From assembly GCA_026399015.1 (NCBI GenBank), contig JAPLRS010000009.1, forward strand, positions 46,047 to 110,046: a DNA stretch of 64,000 bases. Reading direction: 5' to 3'. This DNA is from Methylococcales bacterium (GTDB lineage Bacteria; Pseudomonadota; Gammaproteobacteria; Methylococcales; Methylomonadaceae). A model generated the notes under the pieces. It was given only the letters and a program-made list of their open reading frames with translations, searched no databases and was not told the origin of the DNA. A program made the position numbers and the translations under genes. Positions 3,569 through 44,799 of the stretch are shown in pieces; within the stretch, counting starts at the first letter, position 1, and each line of letters opens with the position of its first letter.

Positions 3569-4591
3569 TTAAATATAATCTTTAATTAATAATTCTGCAA
3601 TTTGCACACTATTAAGTGCCGCCCCTTTTCTAACATTATCGCCGACCACCCATAAATCAATACCTTGAGGGTGCGAAATATCTTCTCTAATCCGACCAAC
3701 AAAGACATCATCATTTCCAGATGAATCCGTTACAGCAGTTGGATATCCACCATCAACACGCTCATCAACAACAGTAACCCCTGGTGCATTACTTAATAGT
3801 TTTTTAACATTATCCGCTGTTATTTTATCGATAGTTTCAATGTGTACAGCTTCTGAATGTCCATAGAAAACAGGAACACGTACCGCAGTCGCATTCACCT
3901 TAATATTTGCATCACCCAAAATCTTTTGGGTTTCCCACACCATTTTCATTTCTTCTTTAGTGTAGCCATTGTCCATAAAGACATCAATTTGAGGTAAAAC
4001 ATTAAAGGCTATTTGTTTAGGATAAACTTTTGGCGTAACAGGTTGTAAATTTAATAAATTCATTGTTTGTTTACCCAATTCCTCAATCGCTTCTTTACCA
4101 GTGCCTGATACAGCTTGGTAAGTACAAACGTTAATACGACTAATTCCAACCGCGTCATAAATCGGTTTAAGCGCGACTAACATTTGAATGGTTGAGCAAT
4201 TTGGATTCGCTATAATGCCTCTGTTAACATAATCCGCTACTTTATCGGGATTAACTTCAGGGACGATTAATGGAATGTCATCATCGTATCTAAATTGAGA
4301 GGTGTTATCGATCACTACACAACCAGCCGCCGCTGCAATAGGGGCATAAATTTCTGAAATAGAAGCGCCAGGTGAAAACAAGCCGATTTGAGCTTTTGAA
4401 AAATCAAAGGTGGCTAAATCTTCAACTTTTAATGAACCACCTTTAAAAGGAATACGCTTTCCAACCGAATTACTACTGGCTAAGGCATATACTTCACCTA
4501 CAGGAAAGTTACGCTCTTCTAAAATAGATAGCATTGCTTCACCTACAGCACCCGTAGCGCCAACCACGGCTACGTTATATACTTTACTCAT
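3569..4591 (-). CDS. asd: Aspartate-semialdehyde dehydrogenase
   Basis: VAVVGATGAVGEAML N-terminus, NPNCSTIQM active-site cysteine motif, full-length 340 aa. Confidence 0.96.
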   Translation of the reverse strand: MSKVYNVAVVGATGAVGEAMLSILEERNFPVGEVYALASSNSVGKRIPFKGGSLKVEDLATFDFSKAQIGLFSPGASISEIYAPIAAAAGCVVIDNTSQFRYDDDIPLIVPEVNPDKVADYVNRGIIANPNCSTIQMLVALKPIYDAVGISRINVCTYQAVSGTGKEAIEELGKQTMNLLNLQPVTPKVYPKQIAFNVLPQIDVFMDNGYTKEEMKMVWETQKILGDANIKVNATAVRVPVFYGHSEAVHIETIDKITADNVKKLLSNAPGVTVVDERVDGGYPTAVTDSSGNDDVFVGRIREDISHPQGIDLWVVGDNVRKGAALNSVQIAELLIKDYI

Positions 4592-4610
4592 TGATTTAAT
4601 ATCCTTAAAT

Positions 4611-4636
4611 TAAAAACGAGACCCAAAGGTCTCGTT
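4611..4636 (-). terminator. Rho-independent terminator downstream of adk
   Basis: AACGAGACC-loop-GGTCTCGTT perfect stem, followed by a T run when read on the minus strand (GGTCTCGTTTTTAA). Confidence 0.75.
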
Positions 4637-4668
4637 AACTGTTTAACTTCAATAGACTTATTGACGTC

Positions 4669-5310
<642 letters not shown>

Positions 5311-5565
5311 TTAACTCCAATGGCTAACGCTTATGTAGAATTGCACTTAATAACGTTAAGTTATATCGATGCATAAAGATAAATTACTCTTAATTAGAGT
5401 CTTATTTGCGTATATTTTATAACACAACACGCTTAATCTCTTGTAAAAATACGTTTACCTGCTTATTCTATTAAAAAATTTTTAATCATTAGCTGTTAAT
5501 AAGGTTGATAAGATAAAAATTACAGATAAGAAATTTACTCTTCTAATTAAATTGGATACCCATAA

Positions 5566-8394
5566 ATGAGTAACCTGATTAAACTTTTTCAAGATTCATC
5601 ATCTCTGCAAGGCAGTAATGCTAGTTACATTGAAAGCTTATACGAACAATATTTAGACGACCCAGAATCTGTAGAACTGAGTTGGCAAAAACAATTTAAA
5701 GAAATTCAGCAGGGCACTGCTTATGAAACTGCTCATAGTCTTGTAGTCGAAAGGTTTGCCGAACTCGCTACCCAATCTCATCGCCGCTTAGCGCAACTTC
5801 AGGGCTTTACAGAGGAAAGTGTTAAGAAACAAGCCGCTGTTTCACGCTTAATCAATCATTATCGTGTGCGTGGACATCAAATTGCTAATAGCAACCCACT
5901 TGGTAAAGGTACGCAAGCAGCCACTGATATGGATCCTTCTTACTACGGTTTAACCGAGTTAGATATGGATACCTTATTTGACACCGGCGCAATACAAGGT
6001 GGTGTTGATAGATTGCCTTTACGCAACATTATCGAAAATTTAAGAGCTATTTATTGTGCGAGTATTGGCTCAGAGTTTATGCATATTGTTGATACCCAAA
6101 CTAGACGCTGGTTAATCAATCGTTTAGAAACAACTAAAGCAAAAGTAAATCTTAATCCTGAACAAAAACATGAAATACTAAAACTGCTTACCGCAGCTGA
6201 GGGCATTGAAAGCCACCTACATCATCGCTTTGTAGGTCAAAAACGCTTTTCACTTGAAGGTGGCGAATCCTTAATTCCTATTCTAGATGAATTGATTCAA
6301 GTTTCAGGACATAAAGGTGTTAAAGAAATCGTTATTGGTATGGCGCATCGCGGCCGCTTAAATGTATTGGTTAATATTTTAGGTAAAAGCCCAGCCAGTT
6401 TATTCGACGAGTTTGCCGGTACGTCATCCTTACTACCCGGGGCGCGTTCTGGTGATGTTAAGTATCACATGGGATTTTCATCAAACTTAAAAACACCGGG
6501 TGGCCCAGTGCATGTCACCTTGGCATTTAATCCATCGCATTTAGAAATCATTAACCCCGTTGTCGAAGGTTCGGTTAGAGCAAGGCAAGATAGAGCTGGA
6601 GAAGAAGGTATCAGCAGCGTAATACCGGTATTAATACATGGTGATGCAGCTTTCTCTGGACAAGGTATTGTCATGGAGACTTTAAACATGTCCCAAACTC
6701 GGGCTTTTAATACCGGTGGCACCGTTCATATCGTAATAAATAATCAGATTGGTTTTACAACCAGCAACCCTTTAGATGCTAGATCTACATTGTATTGTAC
6801 AGATGTGGCTAGTATGATTCAGGCCCCTGTATTTCATGTAAATGGGGATGATCCTGAAGCCGTTATTTTTGTAACTCGACTCGCTTTAGATTACAGAATG
6901 ACCTTTAATAAAGATGTGGTAATCGATTTAGTTTGCTATAGACGTTTAGGTCATAACGAAGCCGATGAGCCGGCCGCAACTCAACCGGTGATGTACAAAA
7001 AAATTCGTAATCATAAAACGACGCGTAAGCTGTATTCTGAAAAACTAATACATGAGCAGGTACTTAGTCCAAGCGACTCCGTTAAAATGGAGCAAGACTA
7101 TCAAAAATTATTAGAAGCAGGAGAGGTGGTCTCCCGACCGATCTTAAAAAATCCTGAGTATTCATATACAAACCAATGGTTTAAATTTTTAAATACCAGT
7201 TGGGACACCCCAGGTAATACAGCTATTTCCATTGATTATTTGCGTTTTTGCAACGATAGAATGCAACGCTTACCCGCAGGATTTGAGTTACATCCTAGGG
7301 TTGCTAAAGTGATGGAAAATCGTCGAAAAATGGCGGCAGGTGCTTTGCCGTTAGACTGGGGGTTTGCAGAAAATCTAGCCTACGCCAGTTTATTATTAGA
7401 AAAACATCCGATAAGAATTACCGGTCAAGATGTGGGTAGAGGTACTTTCGTTCATAGACATGCAGTGTTGCATAATCAACTTAATAATAAGACCTATACG
7501 CCTTTAAAACATTTAGATAAAGATCAGGGTAGCGCACTTATATTTGATTCATTACTCTCAGAAGCGGGAGTACTTGGTTTTGAATATGGTTACAGTACAA
7601 CTACACCCAATACATTGGTTATATGGGAAGCTCAATTTGGTGATTTTGCTAACGGCGCACAAGTTGTAATCGATCAATTTATCAGTTCAGGTGAAACTAA
7701 ATGGGGCCGGCTTTGTGGTTTAGTTATGTTACTACCTCATGGATATGAAGGGCAGGGGCCAGAACATTCTTCCGCTCGTTTAGAACGATATTTGCAACTT
7801 TGTGCAGAACATAATATTCAGGTTTGTAACCCTACAAATCCAGCCCAAATATTTCATTTATTGCGTAGGCAGATTATTCGGCCTTATCGTAAACCGCTAG
7901 TCATCATGAGCCCTAAAAGCTTGTTAAGACATAAATTGGCGGTTTCTTCTTTAGAAGATTTAACAACAGGGCATTTTCAAGAAGTTATTGGTGAGCAAGA
8001 AAAAGTAGATGCTAAAAAGATTACCCGTTTTATTCTCTGTGCCGGTAAAGTTTATTATGATTTGCTAGAAGCGCGTAATCAAGACAAATTAGAGCATGTC
8101 GTTATCGTGCGTTTAGAGCAACTTTATCCTTTTCCTGATAAATTATTACGCCAAGAGTTCGCTAAATATCCAAAATTAAAAGAGTTCATTTGGTGTCAAG
8201 AAGAGCCAAAAAATCAAGGTGCTTGGTATCAATCCAAACATCATTTTACAGATAATGTTCCTGCCAATGTCAGTGTAAGTTATGCGGGGCGTGATGCTTC
8301 TGCAGCGCCTTCAGTAGGAAAGTTTCATGTACACATAGAACAACAAAAAGCTGTCGTTCAATCAGCCTTATACGGCAATACTTTAGGAAATTAA
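5566..8394 (+). CDS. sucA: 2-oxoglutarate dehydrogenase E1 component
   Basis: 942 aa; [23 protein letters not shown]-terminus, [56 protein letters not shown]. Confidence 0.97.
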
Positions 8395-8395
8395 T

Positions 8396-9658
8396 ATGAG
8401 CATCGAAGTACTAGTCCCCAACTTACCAGAATCTGTATCAGACGCGACTTTAATTAACTGGCAAAAAAAAGCTGGTGATTTTGTCAATAAAAACGAACAC
8501 TTAGTTGACCTAGAAACTGACAAAGTGGTCTTAGAAGTGACAGCAACTGAATCTGGGGTCTTAAGTCAAATTTTGAAAGAAAATGGGACAATCGTAACCA
8601 GCGGAGAAGTTCTAGCTATCATTCAATTAAAATCTGCTGAAGAATCAACGCCTATCGAGCCTATCGTCAACCAAACGCCAGTACACAAAAATGATGATGA
8701 CATACCGTTAAGTCCATCAGTAAGACGCTTAATTCACGAAAATAATTTAGATCCCACGCAAATTAATGGCTCAGGTAAAAGCGGTCGCCTAACTAAAGCT
8801 GATGTGCTTGAACACCTTAATCAATCAGAGACTAGCACTGTTACTGTGCAAACACCCGTCGCAGAGTCTCCTAAAATAGTTACAGCGAGTCATACCCCCA
8901 TCCAAGCTACTGAAACAACCTTTAGTAATGCGACTGACGTACCAAGAACTGCTGGCATTAGGCCAGAACAACGCGTACCTATGACTCGCTTAAGAGCTAA
9001 AGTGGCTGAAAGGTTGTTACAAGCACAACAAAATGCCGCCATGTTAACGACGTTTAATGAAGTTAACATGCAAAGCGTCATTGATTTACGCAATCAATAT
9101 AAAGATCGTTTTGATAAAAAACACGGTGTAAAGCTTGGCTTCATGTCGTTTTTTGTAAAAGCTTCTATCGAAGCTTTAAAACACTTTCCAGCTATTAATG
9201 CCTCAATTGACGGTAGTGACATTATTTATCACGGTTATTATGATTTAGGTATTGCCGTTAGTACACCACGCGGTTTAATCGTCCCGGTTTTACATGATGC
9301 GGATCAATTGGACTTTGCCGGTATCGAAAAAAGCATCGCTAATTATGGTGAAAAAGCTAGGTCAGGTACCTTAAGCTATGAAGATTTACAAGGTGGCACC
9401 TTTACTATTACAAATGGTGGTGTGTTTGGCTCCATGTTATCTACACCAATTCTTAACCCACCTCAATGTGCAATTTTAGGTATGCACGCCATAAAAGAAC
9501 GCCCAGTTGTTGAAAATGGTCAAATTGTAATTAGACCTATTATGTATTTAGCGCTGTCTTATGACCACCGTTTGGTTGATGGTCGTGAGGCCGTCCAGTT
9601 TTTAGTAACCATCAAAGAATGTCTTGAATCGCCAGCCCATTTATTACTAAATATCTAA
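8396..9658 (+). CDS. sucB: Dihydrolipoyllysine succinyltransferase (E2)
   Basis: Lipoyl domain with intact ETDKV lysine, peripheral subunit-binding domain ([16 protein letters not shown]), catalytic [16 protein letters not shown]. Confidence 0.97.
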
Positions 9659-9662
9659 TATT

Positions 9663-11105
9663 ATGACTACTATCACTAACGATTATTACGATGTAATTGT
9701 CATCGGCACAGGCCCAGCTGGGTTTGCCTGTGCAGTGCGCAGTGCCCAACTAGGTTTAAAAACAGCGTGTATTAATAATCGGCATGATGCTAATAATAAA
9801 GACACGCATTTAAATACTGGAGACATAGGTACGATGGCGCTATTAGATTCAGCTAAAAAATATCACAGCCTAATTCACGAATATGCAGAACACGGAATTT
9901 ATGCCAAAGATATCAAATTAGATCTGACAATAATGCTGCAAAGAAAAGATAAGATTCTTGCAGAAATTGGCAATAAAATGATCGATTTATTTAACAGTCA
10001 CAATATTGGCCACATCCATGCTAGTGCACGATTACTAAATCCACAACAAGTTGAAATTATTGCCGACGATACGCAAATAAAATCAGTACTTAATGCAAAA
10101 ACGATTGTCTTAGCCACGGGTTCAGAAGCCATAACATTAGCAAATATTGCGATTGATAACGAGTTTATATTTGATGCAAAAGCTGCCTTAAATATCAATG
10201 AAGTACCCTGTAAATTGGCTATTATTGGGGCAGGGGTGATGGGCTTAGAGTTGGCCAATATATGGAGTCGTTTAGGCTCAAAAACCGTGTTATTAGAAGC
10301 TCAAGACAACTTTTTATCCGTACTAGATCAACAAATTTCAGGCGCTGCCTTTAGCATGTACCAAGATCAAGGTTTGGATCTTCGCTTAGGTGCCAGAGTA
10401 ATTTCTGCCAAAAAGTCTAATAAAACCATAACGATAGAGTATCAAGATCAAGAAGGTACTCATACTTTAAAAGTTGATAAAGTAATCGTTGCTTGTGGCA
10501 GCAGGCCTAATACCGCAAATTTAGCCGCACCAGAAGCAAATTTACTTTTAGATCAAGATGGTTATGTGTATGTAGATAATAATTGTCGCACAAATTTGCC
10601 TGGTGTATATGCGGTCGGAGATTTAACTTTATTAGGACCTATGTTGGCGCATAAAGGCATAGAAGAGGGCATCTTTGTTGCTGATTTTATTGCAGGAATA
10701 AATAATCCGATTAATTATGACATTTTGCCGAGCGTAATCTACACAGAGCCAGAAATTGCTTGGATAGGCCAAACAGAACAAGCCTTAAGAGCGATGGGTG
10801 AACCTATAAAAATTGCCATTTATCCGTTAAATTCAAACATACGAGCCTTAGCCATAGACAAGCGCGAAGGTATAGTTAAAATTATAGCGCATGCTTATAC
10901 AGATCAAATTTTAGGCATTCACATTATTGGTACCCAAGCATCAGAACTTATTGCAGAAGCGGTATTAGCGATGGAATTTTCTGCAAGTAGTGAAGACTTA
11001 GCCAGAACAATTCATGCCAGACCCACATTATCAGAAGCCGTTCATGATGCAGCATTAACCTTAAAAGACCGAGTTTGGCATCATCCACAAAGCCTCACAA
11101 ATTAA
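9663..11105 (+). CDS. Dihydrolipoyl dehydrogenase-like flavoprotein (E3 position of the OGDH operon) lacking the CxxxxC redox motif
   Basis: FAD motif GTGPAGFACA, NAD motif IGAGVMGLELA and GVYAVGDLT are present. CLNVGCIPSK is replaced by HLNTGDIGTM and HAHPTLSE by HARPTLSE. Confidence 0.88.
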   Translation: MTTITNDYYDVIVIGTGPAGFACAVRSAQLGLKTACINNRHDANNKDTHLNTGDIGTMALLDSAKKYHSLIHEYAEHGIYAKDIKLDLTIMLQRKDKILAEIGNKMIDLFNSHNIGHIHASARLLNPQQVEIIADDTQIKSVLNAKTIVLATGSEAITLANIAIDNEFIFDAKAALNINEVPCKLAIIGAGVMGLELANIWSRLGSKTVLLEAQDNFLSVLDQQISGAAFSMYQDQGLDLRLGARVISAKKSNKTITIEYQDQEGTHTLKVDKVIVACGSRPNTANLAAPEANLLLDQDGYVYVDNNCRTNLPGVYAVGDLTLLGPMLAHKGIEEGIFVADFIAGINNPINYDILPSVIYTEPEIAWIGQTEQALRAMGEPIKIAIYPLNSNIRALAIDKREGIVKIIAHAYTDQILGIHIIGTQASELIAEAVLAMEFSASSEDLARTIHARPTLSEAVHDAALTLKDRVWHHPQSLTN

Positions 11106-21802: not shown

Positions 21803-23581
21803 ATGCAGGTATTTATTCAAGATCTTATAAAAAATAATGGCTATCAAGCCACTGATTTATTAGCTGTCCTTAGAGCAGTTCAAGCACAATACCAGCACAT
21901 ACCTAAAGCCGCTATCGAACAGATAGCGGCTTTACTTTGTATATCAAGAACCCAAGTGATTGGGGTTATCGAGTTTTATAGTTTCTTTCATTTAAGCCCA
22001 CGCGGTCACTATGATTTATTAATCAGCGATTCGATTACCGATCATTTATTGGGCAAACATCAAATTACTGCTTATATAGAACAAGCCTTACAGGTTAAAT
22101 TAGGCGAAGTTAGGTCTGATGGTTTAGTCAGTTTTGATAATACGTCTTGCACCGGTCTATGTGATCAGGGCCCTGCTGCTTTAATTAACGGTTATGCCCT
22201 ACCCCATTTAACGCCAGCAAAAATTGATCAGATCACTGGCTTAATTAATCAACAAATCCCCGTATCAGCTTGGCCGGCTGATTTATTTGCCGTTAATGAC
22301 AATGTTTATCAAGCGGGTTTATTACTCAGCCAAACTATACAACACGGCGAAGCATTACACGCTGGCCTTGAACGCGGTTTTAAAGAAACTTTAAAAGAAC
22401 TGGATATTTCTGGCCTGCGTGGCCGAGGTGGTGCTGGTTTTAAAACCGCCACTAAATGGCAGTATTGCGCTGAAGAAACTGCCGATGCACGCATTGTGGT
22501 GTGTAATGCCGATGAAGGCGAACCGGGCACTTTTAAAGATCGAGTTTTATTAACGACACACGCCCATCAAGTATTTGAAGGCATGACCTTATGTGCCGCT
22601 ATTATTGGTGCTGAACAAGGCTTTTTATATTTACGCGGTGAATATTTACATTTATATGCACCTTTAAAAGCAGTTTTAGCAGAGCGTAAACAAGCGGGGT
22701 TATTAGGCAATAACATTATTAATGCCGGCTTTAATTTTGATATACAAATTTGTTTAGGAGCTGGGGCTTATATCTGTGGTGAGGAATCGGCTTTAATAGA
22801 ATCACTTGAGGGCAAAATGGGGATTCCTAGAAATCGCCCACCTTATCCAGTCACCCACGGCTATTTAGGTAAACCCACCGTCGTTAATAATGTTGAAACC
22901 TATATGGCTGCCGCTAAAATTGCGCTTAACGGCGGCGAGTGGTTTGCTAATGTGGGCACAGATAAATCAAAAGGCACTAAAATCTTGAGTATTTGTGGTG
23001 ATTGCGCAAAACCCGGTATTTATGAAGTCGACTTTGGCACATCTATTCAAACTATTCTGGATGATTGTGGGGCTAAAGATGTGTTGGGCATTCAGATTGG
23101 TGGGCCGTCAGGTACTTTTATATCAAATACTGAGTTTGCCAGAAAAATTGCTTTTGAAGATTTAGCCACAGGTGGCTCATTTATTATCTTTAATAACTCG
23201 CGCAATATCTTAGACATCGTTAATAATTTTACGCACTTCTTTGCCCATGAAAGTTGTGGTTTCTGTACCCCTTGTCGTGTTGGGACCTCTTTATTAAAGA
23301 ATCAACTGGATAAAATCGTTAATGGTCATGGTTCTGCCGGTGATGTGGTGGCTTTAGAGGAACTTTGCCAATTAGTTAAAACTCAAAGCCATTGTGGTTT
23401 AGGCCAAACAGCCGCTAACCCCATCTTAACAACCCTAGAGCGTTACCCTGAACTCTATCAAGCGCAATTAAAAAAGATAAGTTATGAACCCGGATTTGAT
23501 TTAGATGCCGCATTAGAAACAGCAAGGCAAATGGCAAATCGTAACGATGCCGCGGCGCATTTATCACAACTGGAGGATTGA
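21803..23581 (+). CDS. hoxF: NAD-reducing [NiFe] hydrogenase diaphorase subunit HoxF (NuoE-like N-terminus fused to NuoF-like domain)
   Basis: SGLRGRGGAGFKTATKWQYC, CNADEGEPGTFKDR, GAYICGEESALIESLEG, ESCGFCTPCRVGTSLL; followed by hoxUYHW. Confidence 0.95.
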   Translation: MQVFIQDLIKNNGYQATDLLAVLRAVQAQYQHIPKAAIEQIAALLCISRTQVIGVIEFYSFFHLSPRGHYDLLISDSITDHLLGKHQITAYIEQALQVKLGEVRSDGLVSFDNTSCTGLCDQGPAALINGYALPHLTPAKIDQITGLINQQIPVSAWPADLFAVNDNVYQAGLLLSQTIQHGEALHAGLERGFKETLKELDISGLRGRGGAGFKTATKWQYCAEETADARIVVCNADEGEPGTFKDRVLLTTHAHQVFEGMTLCAAIIGAEQGFLYLRGEYLHLYAPLKAVLAERKQAGLLGNNIINAGFNFDIQICLGAGAYICGEESALIESLEGKMGIPRNRPPYPVTHGYLGKPTVVNNVETYMAAAKIALNGGEWFANVGTDKSKGTKILSICGDCAKPGIYEVDFGTSIQTILDDCGAKDVLGIQIGGPSGTFISNTEFARKIAFEDLATGGSFIIFNNSRNILDIVNNFTHFFAHESCGFCTPCRVGTSLLKNQLDKIVNGHGSAGDVVALEELCQLVKTQSHCGLGQTAANPILTTLERYPELYQAQLKKISYEPGFDLDAALETARQMANRNDAAAHLSQLED

Positions 23582-24300
23582 TTATGACTAAAACACTGAC
23601 GATTGATGGTGTAACTATTCCTTTTGAAGACGGTCAAACTATCATCCAAGCCGCAACTGCTGCGGGTATTTACATTCCGCATTTATGTCATAACCCAGAG
23701 TTTACTCCCCATGGTAGTTGCAAACTCTGTACGGTAAAAGTTAATGGCCGAAACTGTTCTGCGTGTACGTTTCCAGCAATGGATGGTCAAGAAGTTATCA
23801 ATAACGCTAAAGACTTAAATGCTGATCGCCAAAAAATCACCCAAATGCTGTTTGTTGAGGGTAATCACTTTTGCCCTTCTTGTGAAAAAACCGGTAATTG
23901 TCAGTTGCAAGCCGTGGCCTATCATTTAAACATGCTGGATGATCACTTTCCGTTATTTTATCCACACCGAGAATTGGATGCCTCGCATGAGGAAATTTTA
24001 ATTGATCATAACCGGTGCATTTTTTGCACTCTATGTGTAAGAGCCAGCCATGAGCAGGATGGAAAAGATGTATTTGCTATCAGTGGCCGCGGCATTAATA
24101 AACATTTAATCGTTAATTCAGAAACCGGGTTATTAAAAGATACTGATATTTCTGCAAGCGATAAAGCCGCTCATATATGCCCTACTGGCGCCATTTTAAT
24201 TAAACACACCGCTTATCAAGTCCCAATTGGCAAACGGATATACGATCATCAGCAAATTGATCAAGTCACGCTTAATTCGGAGTCTGAACATGACAAATAA
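23578..24300 (+). CDS. hoxU: NAD-reducing hydrogenase subunit HoxU
   Basis: 2Fe-2S ferredoxin fold, HFCPSCEKTGNCQLQA, CIFCTLCVRA, ICPTGAI. Confidence 0.95.
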   Translation: MIMTKTLTIDGVTIPFEDGQTIIQAATAAGIYIPHLCHNPEFTPHGSCKLCTVKVNGRNCSACTFPAMDGQEVINNAKDLNADRQKITQMLFVEGNHFCPSCEKTGNCQLQAVAYHLNMLDDHFPLFYPHRELDASHEEILIDHNRCIFCTLCVRASHEQDGKDVFAISGRGINKHLIVNSETGLLKDTDISASDKAAHICPTGAILIKHTAYQVPIGKRIYDHQQIDQVTLNSESEHDK

Positions 24301-24832
24301 AATTAGAGTCGCCACAACTTCTTTAGCAGGATGTTTTGGTTGTCACATGTCGTTTTTAGATATTGATGAGCGCATTCTAGAACTAGCTGAAGTGGTGGTG
24401 TTCGACCGCTCACCTATTACAGACATTGAACACTGTAGTGCCGACTGTGATATTGGATTAATAGAAGGCGGGGTTTGCAACTCAGAAAATGTCCATACAC
24501 TCAGAGAGTTTAGAAAAAATTGTAAGATTTTAGTGGCAGTTGGTGCCTGTTCTATTAATGGTGGTTTACCTGCTATGCGAAATTTTATACCTTTAGAAGA
24601 ATGTCTAAACGAAGCCTACATTAATGGTATTGGGGTTGAAAATGCTCAAATCCCCAGTGATCCAGAATTACCTTTATTACTAGATAAAGTTCGACCTATT
24701 CATGAAGTGGTCAAAGTTGATTATTTCTTACCTGGTTGTCCGCCCTCTGCCGATGTATTCTGGAAATTTTTAACTGATTTAATCGCCGGAAAAGAACCCT
24801 CTTTACCCTACGATCTAGTCCATTATGATTGA
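24290..24832 (+). CDS. hoxY: NAD-reducing hydrogenase small subunit HoxY
   Basis: TTSLAGCFGCHMSFLDIDE, VAVGACSINGGLPAMRN, FLPGCPPSADVFW. ATG at 24290 overlaps the hoxU end; the ORF track start (24227) is upstream. Confidence 0.95.
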   Translation: MTNKIRVATTSLAGCFGCHMSFLDIDERILELAEVVVFDRSPITDIEHCSADCDIGLIEGGVCNSENVHTLREFRKNCKILVAVGACSINGGLPAMRNFIPLEECLNEAYINGIGVENAQIPSDPELPLLLDKVRPIHEVVKVDYFLPGCPPSADVFWKFLTDLIAGKEPSLPYDLVHYD

Positions 24833-24872
24833 TAAAATCGTCTTGTTGTACTAAATCATATTAGAGAAAATT

Positions 24873-26375
24873 ATGTACGAACATTTAGAAACTGCTGAAA
24901 ACCAAGAAAACCTTAAACGCGTAGTTGTAGAACCTGTTTCTCGCGTAGAGGGACACGGAAAAGTTACGCTGCTCTTGGATCAAGACAATAAGGTTAAACA
25001 AGCTCGCCTACATATTGTTGAATTTAGAGGCTTTGAACGTTTTATTCAAGGTCGACCCTATTGGGAACTACCGGTCTTAGTGCAACGCTTATGTGGCATT
25101 TGCCCAGTCAGTCATCATCTTGCTGCTGCAAAAGCGATTGATCAGTTGGTGGGAATTGATCCAGCTAATCTTCCGGTTGCCGCTGATAAACTGCGCCGCT
25201 TATTACATTTTGGGCAAGTATTACAATCCCATGCTTTGCACTTTTTTCATTTATCCAGCCCCGATTTACTTTTTGGCTTTGAAAGCGACATTAGCAAACG
25301 CTCTATTATTGCCGTGATTGATGCTTATCCAGATTTAGCGGTACAAGGCGTTATGTTACGCAAGTATGGTCAAGAAGTGATCCGTATGGTGTCTGGTAAA
25401 CGCGTCCATGGTACTGGCGCTATTCCTGGTGGCATGAATAAATCTTTAAATAAAGAGGAACGCGATTATTTATTAAAAGATATTGAACAGATCATCAGTT
25501 GGTCAGCTGCTTCTGTTGATTTAATTAAAAATGTACATTGCTCCAACCTCCCCTACTATGATGATTTTGCGACCATAAAAACTAATTATTTAGGTTTAAC
25601 CAAACCCGATGGCGCCTTAGAACTCTATCATGGCGGCATTCGCGCTAAAAATGCTAAGGGTGAAACCATTATTGATCATGTCGATTATTGTAAATATAAC
25701 GATTATATTCATGAAGAAGTCAGGTCTTGGTCTTATATGAAATTCCCTTACCTGTTGTCTGAAGGTAAAGAAAATGGCTGGTATCGTGTTGGCCCCTTAG
25801 CTCGGGTAAATAACTGTGATTATATTGATACACCTTTAGCAGAAGCTGCGCGATTAGAATTTAAAGCCCATGGCAACTCTGCTATGGTGCACAGTACATT
25901 AGCTTTTCATTGGGCGCGTTTAATTGAACTCTTACATTGCGCCGAAAGCATTAGAACCCTGTTACACGATCCTGACATTATGAGCAATGACTTGGTTGCT
26001 AGAGGTGAAAAGCGTTATGAAGGTGTTGGGGTTATTGAAGCGCCTAGAGGCACCTTATTTCATCATTATCAAGTGGATGAAAACGATATAGTCACTAAGG
26101 CTAATTTAATCGTTTCAACAACCAGTAATAATATGGCAATGAACGAATCTGTAAGACAAGTGGCCGCTGAATATTTATCGGGTCAAGAACTAACCGAACC
26201 TTTATTAAATAATTTAGAAGTCGCTATTAGAGCTTATGATCCTTGTTTGTCTTGTGCTACTCATGCCATGGGTAAAATGCCCTTGCAACTAGAGTTGATA
26301 AATGCAGATGGTCAGTTAATTGATAAGTTGGTCAAAGGTAGCGATGGTCATATTAATCGAGTAGCTAGTGCTTAA
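24873..26375 (+). CDS. hoxH: NAD-reducing hydrogenase large subunit HoxH
   Basis: RLCGICPVSHHLAAAKA (L1/L2 motif) and DPCLSCATHAMG C-terminal NiFe ligands with a cleavable tail. Confidence 0.96.
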   Translation: MYEHLETAENQENLKRVVVEPVSRVEGHGKVTLLLDQDNKVKQARLHIVEFRGFERFIQGRPYWELPVLVQRLCGICPVSHHLAAAKAIDQLVGIDPANLPVAADKLRRLLHFGQVLQSHALHFFHLSSPDLLFGFESDISKRSIIAVIDAYPDLAVQGVMLRKYGQEVIRMVSGKRVHGTGAIPGGMNKSLNKEERDYLLKDIEQIISWSAASVDLIKNVHCSNLPYYDDFATIKTNYLGLTKPDGALELYHGGIRAKNAKGETIIDHVDYCKYNDYIHEEVRSWSYMKFPYLLSEGKENGWYRVGPLARVNNCDYIDTPLAEAARLEFKAHGNSAMVHSTLAFHWARLIELLHCAESIRTLLHDPDIMSNDLVARGEKRYEGVGVIEAPRGTLFHHYQVDENDIVTKANLIVSTTSNNMAMNESVRQVAAEYLSGQELTEPLLNNLEVAIRAYDPCLSCATHAMGKMPLQLELINADGQLIDKLVKGSDGHINRVASA

Positions 26376-30326: not shown

Positions 30327-33300
30327 TTAACGAGCCACATTTGGCGAGGGTGCTGGAGTTGTGGCGGGTGTTGGATAATGGAAATATCGAGATGCACTAT
30401 CATTTTTAGGTGCTACTGGAGGTACTGGTTGAGTCGATTTAACTGTGGCGGGTTGTCCTAATGGTGTGGCTGGTTTGTTATTCTGTGGTGTTTGTCCCTG
30501 AGAATTTTTATTATTAACACTTTGAGGTGCAACATTGATAGTGGGTTTAGTTACAATTGCTGAGTTTTGTGGTGCCACAGTATTATTGGATTTAGGAATA
30601 GTATTATTGAGCTTAGGAACACTGTTATTGGGAACGGCACCAATACTTGGTTTATTAGTTAATGGCGCAACCACATTAGATTTTGGTTTATTAATATCTG
30701 CAGGAAGTTGCGTAGGTCCAACTTTACTATCAGGCAAAGGCGCGATAGCTGTGTTTGGCTTAACTCCAGTAGGTGTACTCGGTTTGTTGTTAGGCACTGG
30801 CGTGCTAACAGCATTTGGCTGATTAATGCTGGGTTTAGTGCTATTTAAATTGCTACCACCAATATTGTTGACAGGTACTGCGTTATGTAGGGTTTGATTA
30901 ACCGTAGCTTTAATCTGCTCAGTTTTTGCAGGTTGCTGGTTAATTATAGTAGGCGCAGGTTTTGAAACCGGATTTACTGCCTGCGCTGGCTTATTCAGAT
31001 TAATAACGGAAGGCAACGTAGCTTTAATCTGATCATTTTTAACTGGCGTTTGCTGATATTTTGGGGCAACTTTTGCACTCTCAGACATATCAGGTTTTAT
31101 TAAAGATTTATTCTCTTCAGTTGGATTTAGCTGTTTAGGTATTGTCTTAATTTCAACTTGTTTATCAACAATTTTAATCAGGGTTTTATCTGCTTGAATA
31201 GTTTGGCTAGGATTTGCCGGAACAGTAGGTGCGCTAACAGGCTTGGTAAGCTTAGTTACAACAGGAGCTGGTTCAGTGGCTTCTTGCTCAACTGAAGGTT
31301 TATCGGTAACTAATTTACTGATTGGCACCTCTTCAACAGGTAAAGAAGTTGAAATAACCGTTTTTTTAATGTCATTAACCGCCACGCCATTCGTTCCGGC
31401 TTTAATAATTATTTTATTATCAAGTGGATTAGCGGGGTTAAGCGATAGCGAATTATTGATTAAGGGCGACAAAACTGGCTTTAAAAATTTAACGATTTGT
31501 ACAGGTAAGGAGCTTGTAAAATGATATTGACCGGCATTATCACCTTCTACGTAAGCAGTAATCACTCCAAAATAGCGTTCCCCAATAAAAAATGTAAACG
31601 TAGCTGCTCGACTAATAAATTTAGATTCAATCACTTCGCCATTAGCGCTTAAAGATTGTTTACGATGATCACCTGTACCCGTTTTACCACCCACGGTCAT
31701 GGGTAAACCGTCAATGTTGGTATACACATTATTTAACCGAACTGCAGTACCACCGGCCACTACGCCTACCAAAGCACCTCTAGCGGCTTTCGCAATTTCT
31801 GGCGCAAAGATACGTTCACCCTGATCAACACCTTTCTTTAAGATTGTTTCATAAGGCGTACCTTGAGCATAATGAAAACTCTCAAAACGCACCACCGGTA
31901 ATCTCACACCATCGTTAACAACAATACCCATCAAGTCTGCTAACGCAGCAGGTCTATCACCTGACGCACCAATTGACGTTGCATAAGAAGGTGTTAACTC
32001 TTCAAATGGATAGCCCACTCGTTTCCAAGCTTCATGAATTTTATTAAAGGCTTCTTCTTCAAGCAGCGTCATAATGCGTTGTTGTTGGGCGTTATGCCGG
32101 TTATTTTTAAACAACCAGCGATACACTTGCTGACGTGGTTCCGCACTTGCCTCGATTACTTCTTTACGCGTTGCATTGGGATGTTTAGATAAATAACCCA
32201 CTAACCAAAGTTCTAAGGGATGAATTTTTGTAATGTACCCTTGATCTTGTAAATCAAATTTTTCAATTGAATATTTATTATATAAATCATAAATATCATC
32301 ACTGGCCAACTCAGCTTTGTCTAAATGTTTATTTAAAAAAGCCGTTAAGGCCATCTCATCTGCTTCTGGATTTATCGCTCTAAATAACATAGTAAAACGA
32401 GAGGCTTTAGGAAAAACTCGCTTCGTTAACATATCCAAAATTTCTGCAGAAGTTTTACCTTCATAACGCGCGTAAAACCGATTTAAATAAACCTGCCCCT
32501 CATTGTCGGCAAATTTTTGTAAATATTCTGCGCGCTTAGGACTTTCATCACTGTCTAGCCAACGCGCTATACCGTCAGGCTTGTAAAGATGATGATAAAC
32601 AATTTCACGCATTAACCGAATAAACACTAAGTTAACTGAGTCTCTAAGTGCATCACGAATCGACATAATTTTGCCATCTTCATCTGGCGTAAAATTATTA
32701 AAATGATGTAAACCACCACCGGTAAAAAAGTATTCACCAGGATTAGCAGAATAAGGTTTATCAAGGGCATTATTTAGTAAGTCTTCTAAATTAATCTTAG
32801 GATTTCTTATTAACTGTTCAATAACCCAACTCGACAAAGTATCTTTGGGATGTAACTCAACCTGTTGCAAGGCTTGGGCCGAAAAACCTTTATGTTGCTG
32901 ATAAACTTCGGTGACTAATTCTAAGTAATGCACCATCGTTCTAAATTTTGAAGTAGACCCTAAATCGATACGAATACCTTCATTGATGTCTAACGGCTGA
33001 TCATAGTTATCGGTTTGTACGCGTAGTAAATTACCTACCTTACTTTTTTCAAAGAGCATTAAGCTGTAAATAATAGGTTTAAGATTGGTTGTTTCATTCA
33101 ACATCCTAAATCCGATAATGCCTGCATTACGAGCTTCTGCGGGTTGGCTTAATTTTTTAAGACCATGCATAACGGCTTGCTGAGTCGTATAATCCAGCGT
33201 GCTCTTAACTGTTAAATCTAAACGATCCAAATCGTAATTCGATTTAACCCCTAGCGTATTAGCTAACCTTGCTCGCAATACATTTTGCGTCTTTTTCTCT

Positions 33301-34472
33301 GTGTAAAACTGCGTAGGCAAAGAATCAATCACTGAGGGTCTTAAACTCGGTGCTTTTAAGGCTGCGTCTCTTAAGGCAGGCGAAATAATGCCTTGGGTGG
33401 TCATGATGCCAAGGTATTTATCGGTCAAGCGCTGCAAAGCATCATAACCTCGACCTAACAAATAAGACGGGCGTCTTTGAGATAAAAATATACTTAATAC
33501 TTGTCTGTAAGCAATGGCTTGCTGTTCAGTGATTCTTTTAGGGGCTTTTAAGGCCTCTGTATTTAATAAACGATTAACTTGGGTAATATCAGTACCAAAC
33601 CACGCTGACAGACCATCCCCTAAACCATGAATTTCACCGAGTTTAGCGGTAGCGGCTAATGGCATTGAATTTAAATACGATAAAGCAATTTCTTGACGCA
33701 TGGCTCGGGTATCCGGCCCCATCATATAAGCTCTTAAAGAGGCAGTACCCATCTGCCTAAACTTATCGATTACCCCATTGGTATAACCATTTTTTGAGTG
33801 ACGATACTTTTCTAACTGAGTAGCTAAAGTACTTCCACCTGGTACGGCTTTGGTGGCTCCAAGTTTATGAGCCATTAATTGAATGCCCGCAAAACCTAAT
33901 CTATCCCATTCAATAGCTGGGTTTACCGTTATGTTATCTTTACCTAGTAACTCTCTATTCTCAATATAAATCAATGTATCCATGATAATGGGTGGCACAG
34001 ATTTAAAATCTGGATATCCATAAGCAGGATAAATCGCATTAAAAATAACTTGATCTGACTTATCGGTAATTTTTAAGCCCGCTTGTGCCTTTTCATGATA
34101 AATATTGAACAGACCGTAATCTGCTAACTCAGTCATCATGGGTGAAAAAGTGGCTTGCGAGGTAATTTTATACCCGGTTTTTTCTAGGCGTTTAATAACC
34201 TCTGGGATTAATGTATAACCTAAGCGTTGATCATAGGGGCCGTATTCAGGATAACGGATAGAAGTGCTGGGGCCTTTATTTAAAGAAAAACCCAACTGTT
34301 GTGATATTGCAGACAGATAATAAGCCTGTAATCTTGAGGTTTTAACCTCCATACGGATCAATTGTGCGATAGCCAAACAGACTATAACGCCGACAATCAC
34401 AATATAAATAGTTAAATAGCGCGACAAGCTATTACTAGATTGTTTGCCTCTAGGAACGGGACGCCTCTGCAT
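30327..34472 (-). CDS. Large class A-like penicillin-binding protein (GT51 transglycosylase plus transpeptidase) with long Pro/Asn/Lys-rich C-terminal tail
   Basis: VPGGSTLATQLEKYRHS (GT51-like), GSTSKFRT (SxxK), SVNLVF (SxN), GGKTGTGDHR (KTG); about 330 residues of low-complexity tail. Confidence 0.85.
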   Translation of the reverse strand: MQRRPVPRGKQSSNSLSRYLTIYIVIVGVIVCLAIAQLIRMEVKTSRLQAYYLSAISQQLGFSLNKGPSTSIRYPEYGPYDQRLGYTLIPEVIKRLEKTGYKITSQATFSPMMTELADYGLFNIYHEKAQAGLKITDKSDQVIFNAIYPAYGYPDFKSVPPIIMDTLIYIENRELLGKDNITVNPAIEWDRLGFAGIQLMAHKLGATKAVPGGSTLATQLEKYRHSKNGYTNGVIDKFRQMGTASLRAYMMGPDTRAMRQEIALSYLNSMPLAATAKLGEIHGLGDGLSAWFGTDITQVNRLLNTEALKAPKRITEQQAIAYRQVLSIFLSQRRPSYLLGRGYDALQRLTDKYLGIMTTQGIISPALRDAALKAPSLRPSVIDSLPTQFYTEKKTQNVLRARLANTLGVKSNYDLDRLDLTVKSTLDYTTQQAVMHGLKKLSQPAEARNAGIIGFRMLNETTNLKPIIYSLMLFEKSKVGNLLRVQTDNYDQPLDINEGIRIDLGSTSKFRTMVHYLELVTEVYQQHKGFSAQALQQVELHPKDTLSSWVIEQLIRNPKINLEDLLNNALDKPYSANPGEYFFTGGGLHHFNNFTPDEDGKIMSIRDALRDSVNLVFIRLMREIVYHHLYKPDGIARWLDSDESPKRAEYLQKFADNEGQVYLNRFYARYEGKTSAEILDMLTKRVFPKASRFTMLFRAINPEADEMALTAFLNKHLDKAELASDDIYDLYNKYSIEKFDLQDQGYITKIHPLELWLVGYLSKHPNATRKEVIEASAEPRQQVYRWLFKNNRHNAQQQRIMTLLEEEAFNKIHEAWKRVGYPFEELTPSYATSIGASGDRPAALADLMGIVVNDGVRLPVVRFESFHYAQGTPYETILKKGVDQGERIFAPEIAKAARGALVGVVAGGTAVRLNNVYTNIDGLPMTVGGKTGTGDHRKQSLSANGEVIESKFISRAATFTFFIGERYFGVITAYVEGDNAGQYHFTSSLPVQIVKFLKPVLSPLINNSLSLNPANPLDNKIIIKAGTNGVAVNDIKKTVISTSLPVEEVPISKLVTDKPSVEQEATEPAPVVTKLTKPVSAPTVPANPSQTIQADKTLIKIVDKQVEIKTIPKQLNPTEENKSLIKPDMSESAKVAPKYQQTPVKNDQIKATLPSVINLNKPAQAVNPVSKPAPTIINQQPAKTEQIKATVNQTLHNAVPVNNIGGSNLNSTKPSINQPNAVSTPVPNNKPSTPTGVKPNTAIAPLPDSKVGPTQLPADINKPKSNVVAPLTNKPSIGAVPNNSVPKLNNTIPKSNNTVAPQNSAIVTKPTINVAPQSVNNKNSQGQTPQNNKPATPLGQPATVKSTQPVPPVAPKNDSASRYFHYPTPATTPAPSPNVAR

Positions 34473-42006: not shown

Positions 42007-44799
42007 TTAATTGGTAAAGTCAAGCAACTTTAAGCCAGGAGGCAGTGCTTCACCAAACATTTGTTTTTCAGCTTTTTCATCAAGTTCTTTGTATTGCTCT
42101 ACCATTTCTATCCATGTGACGGGTGCTTTGCTTAATTTTAATTTAGTTATAATTTGCTCACGCATGTCGCTATCAATATCCTGATCACGATCACCACTCA
42201 TTCTAGCAATTAAGGTTGCTGCAAAAGCAGCATGTAGATTCTTTTTCCAGTCTTCAGTTAATATTTGCGCTAACCATTGTTCGGCTACTTTTGCGGAAAT
42301 CAAGTTATGTTGACTACCATAAAAAGGCACTCGGGCACCAATTCTACCAACAGCCCACCAAGACTGTTTAGGCTCTGCGGATTTTTCTAATCGGCTTAAT
42401 AGCCAGTCACCTAATTGTTGTTTCTTATCTACAGGTAATCGCTCCAAAACCGCCGCTAAACGCACAATATCATCATAACTACGGATTTTTATTTGCTTTG
42501 CAACTCCGGCCTGCCTTGCTGCCGAAGGGTTAATGTATTTTGAAATATCAGCAAAGATTTGTTCTTGGGCCGCAACGGATAATCCACCAGCAATTCGGCG
42601 CCATAAGGTCCACCATTCCGTCCAATTTTGGGTTTCGTTTACATACTGAATACCATGCGCATAATGTTTCCATAATTGATCGACGCGCCAATCATCTAAG
42701 CTATCGCCCAATCCTGGTCTTAAACAAAAGCCAACTAAACTCAACCATACTCTTTCATGTTGCTCAGATCGACGATTAGATTTGGTATTATCAATGAGTG
42801 CAGAAAACAAAGCTCTTAATAAGGGTAATTGCCATTCATATCTATCAGCGCCTAATTGTTTTTCAAGTTCTGCACGTAAATTTTTAACCGCGTTGGCTTC
42901 TATGTATTTTGATTTAGAACCAAATATGGCTTGGATTCTCACCACAGCGGCGCCAAACTGGGCCGGTAAACTAAAATCTTTAGCAGACATGTCTGTCGCG
43001 GATTTTTTTCTAAGTTGAAACTCAACATTCCAACGTTGCTGTGAGTTTTCAACTGAAACACATTCTATTTTTAACACCCCCATTTCAGTTTGGGTGACCG
43101 CCAGTTTAACAATCACTTCAGTCATGGCATTTTCTGCCGATGTTTCAAAAGCAACCGCTAGAGGAGGTAAAAAATTAAAATCATCCGTTAGTGGCGTAAT
43201 ATCGCCAGCTTTAAACTCAAGATCACCGGTAGTTGACGCTAAATGAAATCTAACTGGCACGCCTAAACGTAAAGAAAACTGGCGATCTTTTAAGATAACT
43301 TCATCACCTTCTTCACTGCCTTTGGGTAAGATACACACGCCTTGAGGTGCATCAGTTTGAGCACTATCCAATACTAAGAAATAACTACGTGCTGCACCGC
43401 CACCAATCTTTAGTTTATTGTTTCTCTTGGCTAAAGCATAACTCAATGCACCATAAGCAACCGATAATTCTGGGTGCTTATTCTCTAAGAGAGTTGTGGG
43501 CTTATTCCCCCAGGAGTCAAGTAAACTTTTTAATCGACTGCTAATCAAATGGCTACGAAACACCCCGCCATTAAGTAATAAGGCATCGGGCACACTCCCT
43601 TCACCTTTCATGGCTTCAAGTGATGCATGACTGTGATGTTTTAAGAAACCAGCAATATGTTTGCTAATGGCTGGATCAGATGCATAAGGTAAACCAAACT
43701 CAACCACACCACTGCGTTTAATATTAGGCAATTCAGATTGCATTGATAAGGGAAAAAAGCCATCCAGTGCGAGGGTTCTTACTTCTTCTTTTGTAAATAC
43801 CACACTACGAGAACTACCAATCAGTTTTGAGCCACCTCCCAGTAAGGTCACTGTTGTTTGTTCAGGGGCGTCTGTCGCTAATAAGTGTTCTTTTGCTAAG
43901 CGACATTGTTCTAATAATTGGGATAAATCGGCTTGTGATAAACGTTTTTGTTTATCAACTAATCTACTTTCAGCGAGATGCGCAAGGGCTAAATCAATGT
44001 TATCCCCACCCAACATTAAATGATCACCCACACCTATACGGGTTAACTTAGGTTCTTGTGCTCCCGTTTCCACTTTAATTAAGGTTAAATCTGTGGTCCC
44101 GCCTCCGACATCGCACACTAACAATAAATGCACATCATTGAGTGTTTGTTTTAAATTTGCTGCGTTAATCCGTAACCAGTCGTAACAGACGGCTTGGGGT
44201 TCTTCTAATAAACGTACTTTTTTTAAACCTGCCATTTCTGCTGCGGCTAAGGTTAGCGATCTGGCTTCTTCATCAAAAGATGCTGGTACGGTTATAACGA
44301 TATCTTGATATTCTAATGGAGATTGAGGAAATTTATGGCCCCATACGGTGCGAATATGCGCCAAATAACTGGCACTGGCTTCAATGGGTGATACTTTAGC
44401 TACGTCTTCATTACTGCCCCAAGGTAATATATTGGCAGTATGGTCAACGCCAGGATGTGATAACCAACTTTTGGCGCTGGTAACAAATCGACCTTTAGAT
44501 TTTGCACCCAATAATCGAGCGGCCTCACCCAGAACGACAGGCATTTCTGAAAAGTCACCACCTTTGTTGTAACTAAGGAAATTTATTTCATTATTATTAA
44601 GTTCTTCAAGCGCAGGATGATAACGTACTGAGGGTAATAAAGGCCTTTCAGAGACTTGTCCAGGTGCAATTAATTGCTCAATTTGAAATAATTGTATGTC
44701 TTGATGATGGGTATCAGTACTCGCGAAAGCAACAACAGTATGTGTTGTACCCAAGTCTATCCCTACTACATAATTTTGAGATTGCATTTTTTCGATCAA
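42007..44799 (-). CDS. Hsp70-family protein with long divergent C-terminal extension
   Basis: VVGIDLGTTHTVVAFA, LLEEPQAVCYDWL, LLVCDVGGGTTDLTLI ATPase motifs; about 350 aa of non-DnaK C-terminus. Confidence 0.88.
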   Translation of the reverse strand: MIEKMQSQNYVVGIDLGTTHTVVAFASTDTHHQDIQLFQIEQLIAPGQVSERPLLPSVRYHPALEELNNNEINFLSYNKGGDFSEMPVVLGEAARLLGAKSKGRFVTSAKSWLSHPGVDHTANILPWGSNEDVAKVSPIEASASYLAHIRTVWGHKFPQSPLEYQDIVITVPASFDEEARSLTLAAAEMAGLKKVRLLEEPQAVCYDWLRINAANLKQTLNDVHLLLVCDVGGGTTDLTLIKVETGAQEPKLTRIGVGDHLMLGGDNIDLALAHLAESRLVDKQKRLSQADLSQLLEQCRLAKEHLLATDAPEQTTVTLLGGGSKLIGSSRSVVFTKEEVRTLALDGFFPLSMQSELPNIKRSGVVEFGLPYASDPAISKHIAGFLKHHSHASLEAMKGEGSVPDALLLNGGVFRSHLISSRLKSLLDSWGNKPTTLLENKHPELSVAYGALSYALAKRNNKLKIGGGAARSYFLVLDSAQTDAPQGVCILPKGSEEGDEVILKDRQFSLRLGVPVRFHLASTTGDLEFKAGDITPLTDDFNFLPPLAVAFETSAENAMTEVIVKLAVTQTEMGVLKIECVSVENSQQRWNVEFQLRKKSATDMSAKDFSLPAQFGAAVVRIQAIFGSKSKYIEANAVKNLRAELEKQLGADRYEWQLPLLRALFSALIDNTKSNRRSEQHERVWLSLVGFCLRPGLGDSLDDWRVDQLWKHYAHGIQYVNETQNWTEWWTLWRRIAGGLSVAAQEQIFADISKYINPSAARQAGVAKQIKIRSYDDIVRLAAVLERLPVDKKQQLGDWLLSRLEKSAEPKQSWWAVGRIGARVPFYGSQHNLISAKVAEQWLAQILTEDWKKNLHAAFAATLIARMSGDRDQDIDSDMREQIITKLKLSKAPVTWIEMVEQYKELDEKAEKQMFGEALPPGLKLLDFTN

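Follow-up and report, generated by a model that had tools for sequence, protein, structure and literature searches.

The gene directly behind sucA and sucB in the 64,000-nt stretch of Methylococcales DNA analysed here (the window) encodes a dihydrolipoyl dehydrogenase-like protein that has lost the redox dithiol, the PSK lysine and the catalytic base of E3. Its homologues throughout the family form a single clade under purifying selection. We give a probability of about 0.55 to the reading that this protein is a maintained pseudo-E3, dead for lipoamide, that partners SucB in a structural or regulatory capacity, while the Lpd of PDH does the chemistry. This would make it a conserved bacterial pseudoenzyme within a core metabolic complex.

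The frame at 9663-11105 is open on the forward strand and encodes 480 aa. A sequence-only reading of this DNA had placed replacements at the two redox cysteines and at the C-terminal base, and its coordinates and residues proved exact to the base when the frame was translated and aligned by HMMER with the solved E3s 1lpf, 5u8u and 3lad. The redox motif is KDTHLNTGDIGTM compared to GGTCLNVGCIPSK in canonical E3. His49 and Asp54 align to the two redox cysteines (Cys1 and Cys2) and Arg453 to the catalytic base His; the C-terminal motif reads HARPTLSE instead of the canonical HAHPTLSE, with Glu458 kept. The alignment thus confirmed the loss of dithiol and base, and it revealed changes that had gone unmentioned: Met58 where canonical E3s have the lysine of the PSK segment that follows Cys2, Gly56 in place of Pro, a four-residue deletion before the motif, and Asn38, which in the window subclade replaces the acidic residue after the second FAD strand. 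A displaced cysteine pair was rejected, since there is no CxxxxC anywhere in the 480-aa product (its cysteines are at 23, 36, 183, 278 and 308), and the cysteine loss stands. In nine relatives a CxxxxC does occur, but it lies at the second FAD strand, distant from the active site. The product therefore has no CxxxxC redox disulfide beside the flavin, no PSK lysine and no C-terminal His-Glu dyad. Invariant catalytic columns were preferentially lost relative to 141 other invariant columns (Mann-Whitney p = 0.003, an optimistic value because the sequences are related). By established E3 chemistry the lost groups are needed for dihydrolipoamide oxidation. For this reason, and because the Cys-less yeast protein Irc15p binds FAD, accepts electrons from NADH and reduces quinones but cannot reduce lipoamide (PMC6296175), the pseudo-E3 is very likely inactive with lipoamide.

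Table 1. Features of the sucAB locus in the window (window coordinates).
Feature	Position	Strand	Evidence
sucA, 2-oxoglutarate dehydrogenase E1	5566..8394	+	NF006914 1346 bits, cutoff 764; single copy in genome
sucB, E2 succinyltransferase, lipoyl + E3-binding + catalytic domains	8396..9658	+	NF004309 585 bits; PF00364, PF02817, PF00198
SucB lipoyl lysine codon (ETDK)	8522..8524	+	lysine retained in 111/111 SucB compared
SucB peripheral subunit-binding (E3-binding) domain, consensus intact	8705..8809	+	PF02817; group comparison
pseudo-E3, dihydrolipoyl dehydrogenase-like, without lipoamide-active site	9663..11105	+	TIGR01350 419.7 bits, cutoff 408.8; AF2 model
FAD-binding GTGPAG, retained	9705..9722	+	Gly15, 17, 20 invariant across 81 members and 34 canonical E3s
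4-residue deletion immediately before redox motif	9798..9803	+	relatives' alignment; confined to window subclade
His49 replacing Cys1	9807..9809	+	Cys1 in 0/116 members
Asp54 replacing Cys2	9822..9824	+	Cys2 retained in 82/116 members
Met58 replacing PSK lysine	9834..9836	+	Lys in 0/116 members
NAD-binding GAGVMG, retained	10227..10244	+	
FAD-binding Gly-Asp (VGD), retained	10617..10622	+	Gly319, Asp320 invariant
dimerisation / interface domain, retained	10713..11078	+	PF02852 113 bits; window clade keeps 35/41 canonical-invariant columns
Arg453 replacing catalytic base His	11019..11021	+	of 114 members: His 89, Arg 20, Tyr 5

The E1 and E2 genes had been described as intact, and the lipoyl, E3-binding and catalytic domains of SucB are indeed all present. 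The pseudo-E3 is co-encoded with E1o and E2o, as a subunit of 2-oxoglutarate dehydrogenase would be, and starts 4 nt after sucB in the window, which is also the common gap in relatives. Elsewhere in the window, 21803-26375 (+) encodes a NuoF-like flavoprotein subunit with an N-terminal extension, followed at 24873-26375 by a relative of the [NiFe]-hydrogenase large subunit; this region looks like a HoxFUYH-type NAD-linked hydrogenase cluster, with model scores below the curated cutoffs. Two large ORFs of 1381 and 930 aa, at 30327-34472 (-) and 42007-44799 (-), have no NCBIfam match at E <= 1e-30.

All 201 genomes sampled from the window's family gave a match, mostly with a full-length homologue. 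A named scan yielded 80 loci, two titled Gammaproteobacteria and nearly all the others Methylococcales, Methylococcaceae or genera of that group, including Methylobacter, Methylovulum, Crenothrix, Methylomicrobium, Methylomonas-labelled MAGs and Methylotuvimicrobium buryatense 5G. Cys1 and the PSK lysine were missing in 80/80, and sucB, or sucA and sucB, preceded the gene wherever the contig extended upstream. Forty more genomes were added for divergence and genus coverage; the 35 that could be aligned all lacked Cys1 and the lysine, and the other five, read by tblastn, also lacked the canonical motif. Across the 116 alignable members, from ~25 genera, Cys1 and the lysine occur in none and Cys2 in 82, and His and Glu are each found in 89 of 114. 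All five residues are present in 34/34 canonical E3s from the gammaproteobacterial class and the order. Sequencing error or chance was rejected, as separate MAGs of near relatives share the same or similar replacements. At one locus (L180 of G008, genus g9; 4299-5517) the pseudo-E3 behind sucAB is broken into two overlapping ORFs, and sister lineages have it intact. In genus g13 (L170 and related loci) sucA and sucB are unlinked and the pseudo-E3 was not found; joint loss of pseudo-E3 and SucB was rejected there because SucB is present on another contig.

The protein outside the active site is recognisably that of an E3, with FAD- and NAD-binding motifs and a dimerisation domain (PF07992, PF00070, PF02852). 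Its score lies above the curated NCBIfam TIGR01350 cutoff, but barely, so automatic pipelines would label 9663-11105 an active dihydrolipoyl dehydrogenase; annotation and metabolic models are suggested to assign E3 to the wrong gene. An AF2 model (pLDDT 81.5, pTM 0.81) best matched P. aeruginosa LpdG in the PDB, with TM 0.92, and was of low confidence at 325-328 and 452-454, close to the former active site. At least 90% of the pseudo-E3 members retain 98 of the 147 columns that are invariant in canonical E3s (21/43 in the FAD domain, 30/40 in the NAD domain, 19/21 in the central domain and 27/41 in the interface domain). Losses are heaviest at Cys1, Pro and Lys of the motif and at a few FAD-domain positions. 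The window clade retains 21/21 of these columns in the central domain and 28/43 in the FAD domain. Within the window subclade the central domain has hardly changed (mean difference 0.03) compared to the FAD domain (0.20), a contrast that is much smaller in the canonical sets; the interface domain, at 0.19, is under no special constraint. The most eroded pseudo-E3s, L261-L266 of genus g18, have a strongly changed redox loop and FAD domain with recognisable NAD and central domains, and are well suited to testing for a non-redox role.

These retained motifs bear on the main rival explanation, in which the protein is a neofunctionalised NADH-dependent flavoenzyme (a diaphorase, quinone reductase or H2O2-forming oxidase) that is independent of lipoamide and merely inherited its place in the operon. 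NADH would reduce FAD, which would hand the electrons to a quinone or to oxygen. The FAD GxGxxG, the Gly-Asp and the NAD GxGxxG are all kept, and they are compatible with an FAD-bound, NADH-reduced protein of the Irc15p or M. tuberculosis LpdA type, two Cys-deficient Lpd paralogues that act in this way (PMC6296175; LpdA as described there). However, the copies remain behind sucAB, erosion of the protein is greatest in the FAD domain, to an extreme in genus g18, and in the window subclade Asn has taken the place of the acidic residue after the second FAD strand. We regard an independent flavoenzyme as possible but on balance doubtful.

The sequence-only reading had reasoned that the complex would need E3 from elsewhere, and the genome search located such a protein. 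The window's own genome (assembly 86% complete) has two strong Lpd-type proteins, the pseudo-E3 and, on another contig, a canonical Lpd (GGVCLNVGCIPSK ... HPHPTLAE) that is encoded directly behind the PDH-type E2 gene aceF and is 31% identical to the pseudo-E3. A second canonical sucAB-type E3 was not found in this 86% complete assembly, where the search gave only the PDH-linked Lpd. A near relative (containing L036) likewise has only two Lpd matches at E <= 1e-60. Canonical PDH-type Lpd was present in 18/18 genomes checked as well as in the window's own, and M. buryatense 5G has both proteins. A bypass by 2-oxoglutarate:ferredoxin oxidoreductase was rejected, as this enzyme scored above cutoff in only 2/10 genomes (those of L098 and L102, Methylomicrobium sp. 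wino1 and M. buryatense 5G) and not in the window's own. The pseudo-E3 might still be active by other chemistry, or in heterodimer half-sites that pair the cysteines of PDH-linked Lpd with its own His-Glu dyad; both subunits build E3 active sites, and both dyad residues are indeed retained in 36/79 members. This is improbable: the two proteins share only 31% identity, and the dyad is broken by different residues in two clades, by His-to-Arg in that of the window and by Glu-to-Lys in a second that includes M. tundripaludum.

An E3 tree was built quickly, without bootstrap and with the motif columns excluded. In it the degenerate E3s group as one clade (SH-aLRT 100), whose copies with readable upstream DNA all lie behind sucB. 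Nearest to it are canonical E3s behind sucAB from families f7 and f8 of the order (support 86). The minimum number of changes on this tree is one for Cys1, one for Lys, four or more for Cys2 and one for His-to-Arg. Judged by the tree, the loss of Cys1 and Lys is a single old event common to the whole family, and Cys2 and the His-Glu dyad disappeared afterwards in independent steps, so that in many relatives Cys1 and Lys are the only ones missing. The isolated triple loss that had been described for this gene is thus not upheld. In a SucA tree, the E3-less genus g12 is nested among pseudo-E3 carriers, indicating secondary loss, and the broken copy L180 adjoins an intact one. Pairwise dN/dS of the pseudo-E3 was 0.03-0.13, near that of sucB and above that of sucA (NG86, with several pairs dS-saturated). 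These values and the open frames across ~25 genera agree with the earlier view of a maintained rather than decaying protein, and a one-off pseudogene was rejected on the same grounds. Ordinary decay of a redundant lpd under relaxed selection, to which the second Lpd, the broken or absent copies of some lineages and the stepwise erosion might point, is very improbable, being already contradicted by the low dN/dS, the open frames, the retained invariant columns and the age of the clade.

Several lines of evidence favour the reading of the pseudo-E3 as a partner of SucB. Cys1 and Lys are absent from every alignable member and present in every canonical E3 compared, the members form one clade, and dN/dS is low and near that of sucB. 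The gene lies behind sucB, whose product has an intact lipoyl lysine and E3-binding domain, and a canonical Lpd is encoded elsewhere; the central domain is highly constrained while the FAD domain erodes. Together, conservation, operon linkage and the E3-like surface still present point to a role alongside SucB. Against this, the FAD/NAD signatures kept in most members fit a redox role no less than a scaffold, some lineages with sucAB have lost the pseudo-E3 or carry it broken, so that it is dispensable there, and the operon linkage could reflect co-expression alone.

In the mechanism that we propose, an ancestral sucA-sucB-lpd operon would have contained a canonical lpd that turned into a pseudo-E3 once the PDH-encoded Lpd could serve both complexes. 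Loss of Cys1 and the PSK lysine would have abolished dihydrolipoamide oxidation, with Cys2 and the His-Glu dyad eroding afterwards in separate lineages and the E3 fold, NAD domain, central domain and dimer interface persisting. The E3-shaped dimer would most likely still dock on the E3-binding domain of SucB; this domain (PF02817) is present and conserved in SucB. Once docked, it may act as a structural or regulatory subunit that restricts how much active Lpd the complex holds, and could in this way have a regulatory effect on 2-oxoglutarate dehydrogenase, with the PDH-linked Lpd reoxidising the lipoyl groups. A more specific version, which we consider rather unlikely, is a dedicated brake: the pseudo-E3 would compete for SucB with PDH-linked Lpd, perhaps responding to bound NADH or FAD state, and would thereby determine how type I methanotrophs divide 2-oxoglutarate between the TCA cycle and glutamate synthesis.

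It has been disputed for decades whether 2-oxoglutarate dehydrogenase runs in type I methanotrophs. The activity was reported missing in these bacteria despite the genes (PMC517821, PMC5023229) and was undetected in M. alcaliphilum 20ZR (PMC5802761); for M. buryatense 5GB1 a complete cycle on methane was reported (cited in PMC10602362). Judged by sequence, the E3 encoded with sucAB is unfit for its own reaction throughout the family, M. buryatense 5G included, and may bear on the difficulty of detecting 2-oxoglutarate dehydrogenase in methane-eating bacteria. The link to low flux drawn by the sequence-only reading is possible, but it cannot be the whole story. Low or missing activity is also reported for Methylococcus capsulatus, for which the genome paper lists only MCA1952-MCA1953 (PMC517821). 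In line with this, many genera of family f4, probably the family of Methylococcus, and family f6 have sucAB without an adjacent E3. The pseudo-E3 thus cannot alone explain missing activity in species that do not have it.

Compared to LpdG-type E3 (P. aeruginosa 5u8v, A. vinelandii 3lad), the pseudo-E3 shares the fold (TM 0.91-0.92), the length, the FAD/NAD and dimerisation domains and ~42% identity, but is without the redox dithiol, the PSK lysine and the catalytic His. To our knowledge, the gene for M. tuberculosis LpdA does not lie behind sucAB. LpdA resembles Lpd, is missing one cysteine together with the catalytic His and Glu, and does not reduce disulfides, but differs in having a demonstrated quinone reductase activity (as described in PMC6296175). 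The soluble transhydrogenase SthA belongs to the same superfamily and lacks at least one redox cysteine (PMC6296175); however, the 9663-11105 product scores 274 bits against the NF003585 cutoff of 465, far below it. In the literature that was searched, we found no account of a sucAB-linked Cys-less E3 in methanotrophs. Cys-deficient Lpd proteins are already known; a pseudo-E3 that occupies the sucAB locus throughout a family is, as far as we know, a novel variant. Another parallel is Irc15p of Saccharomyces cerevisiae, an Lpd paralogue without both redox cysteines that exists alongside a canonical Lpd (PMC6296175). Irc15p arose after the yeast genome duplication and is associated with microtubules, whereas here the sucAB-linked gene itself was altered and stayed in its operon.
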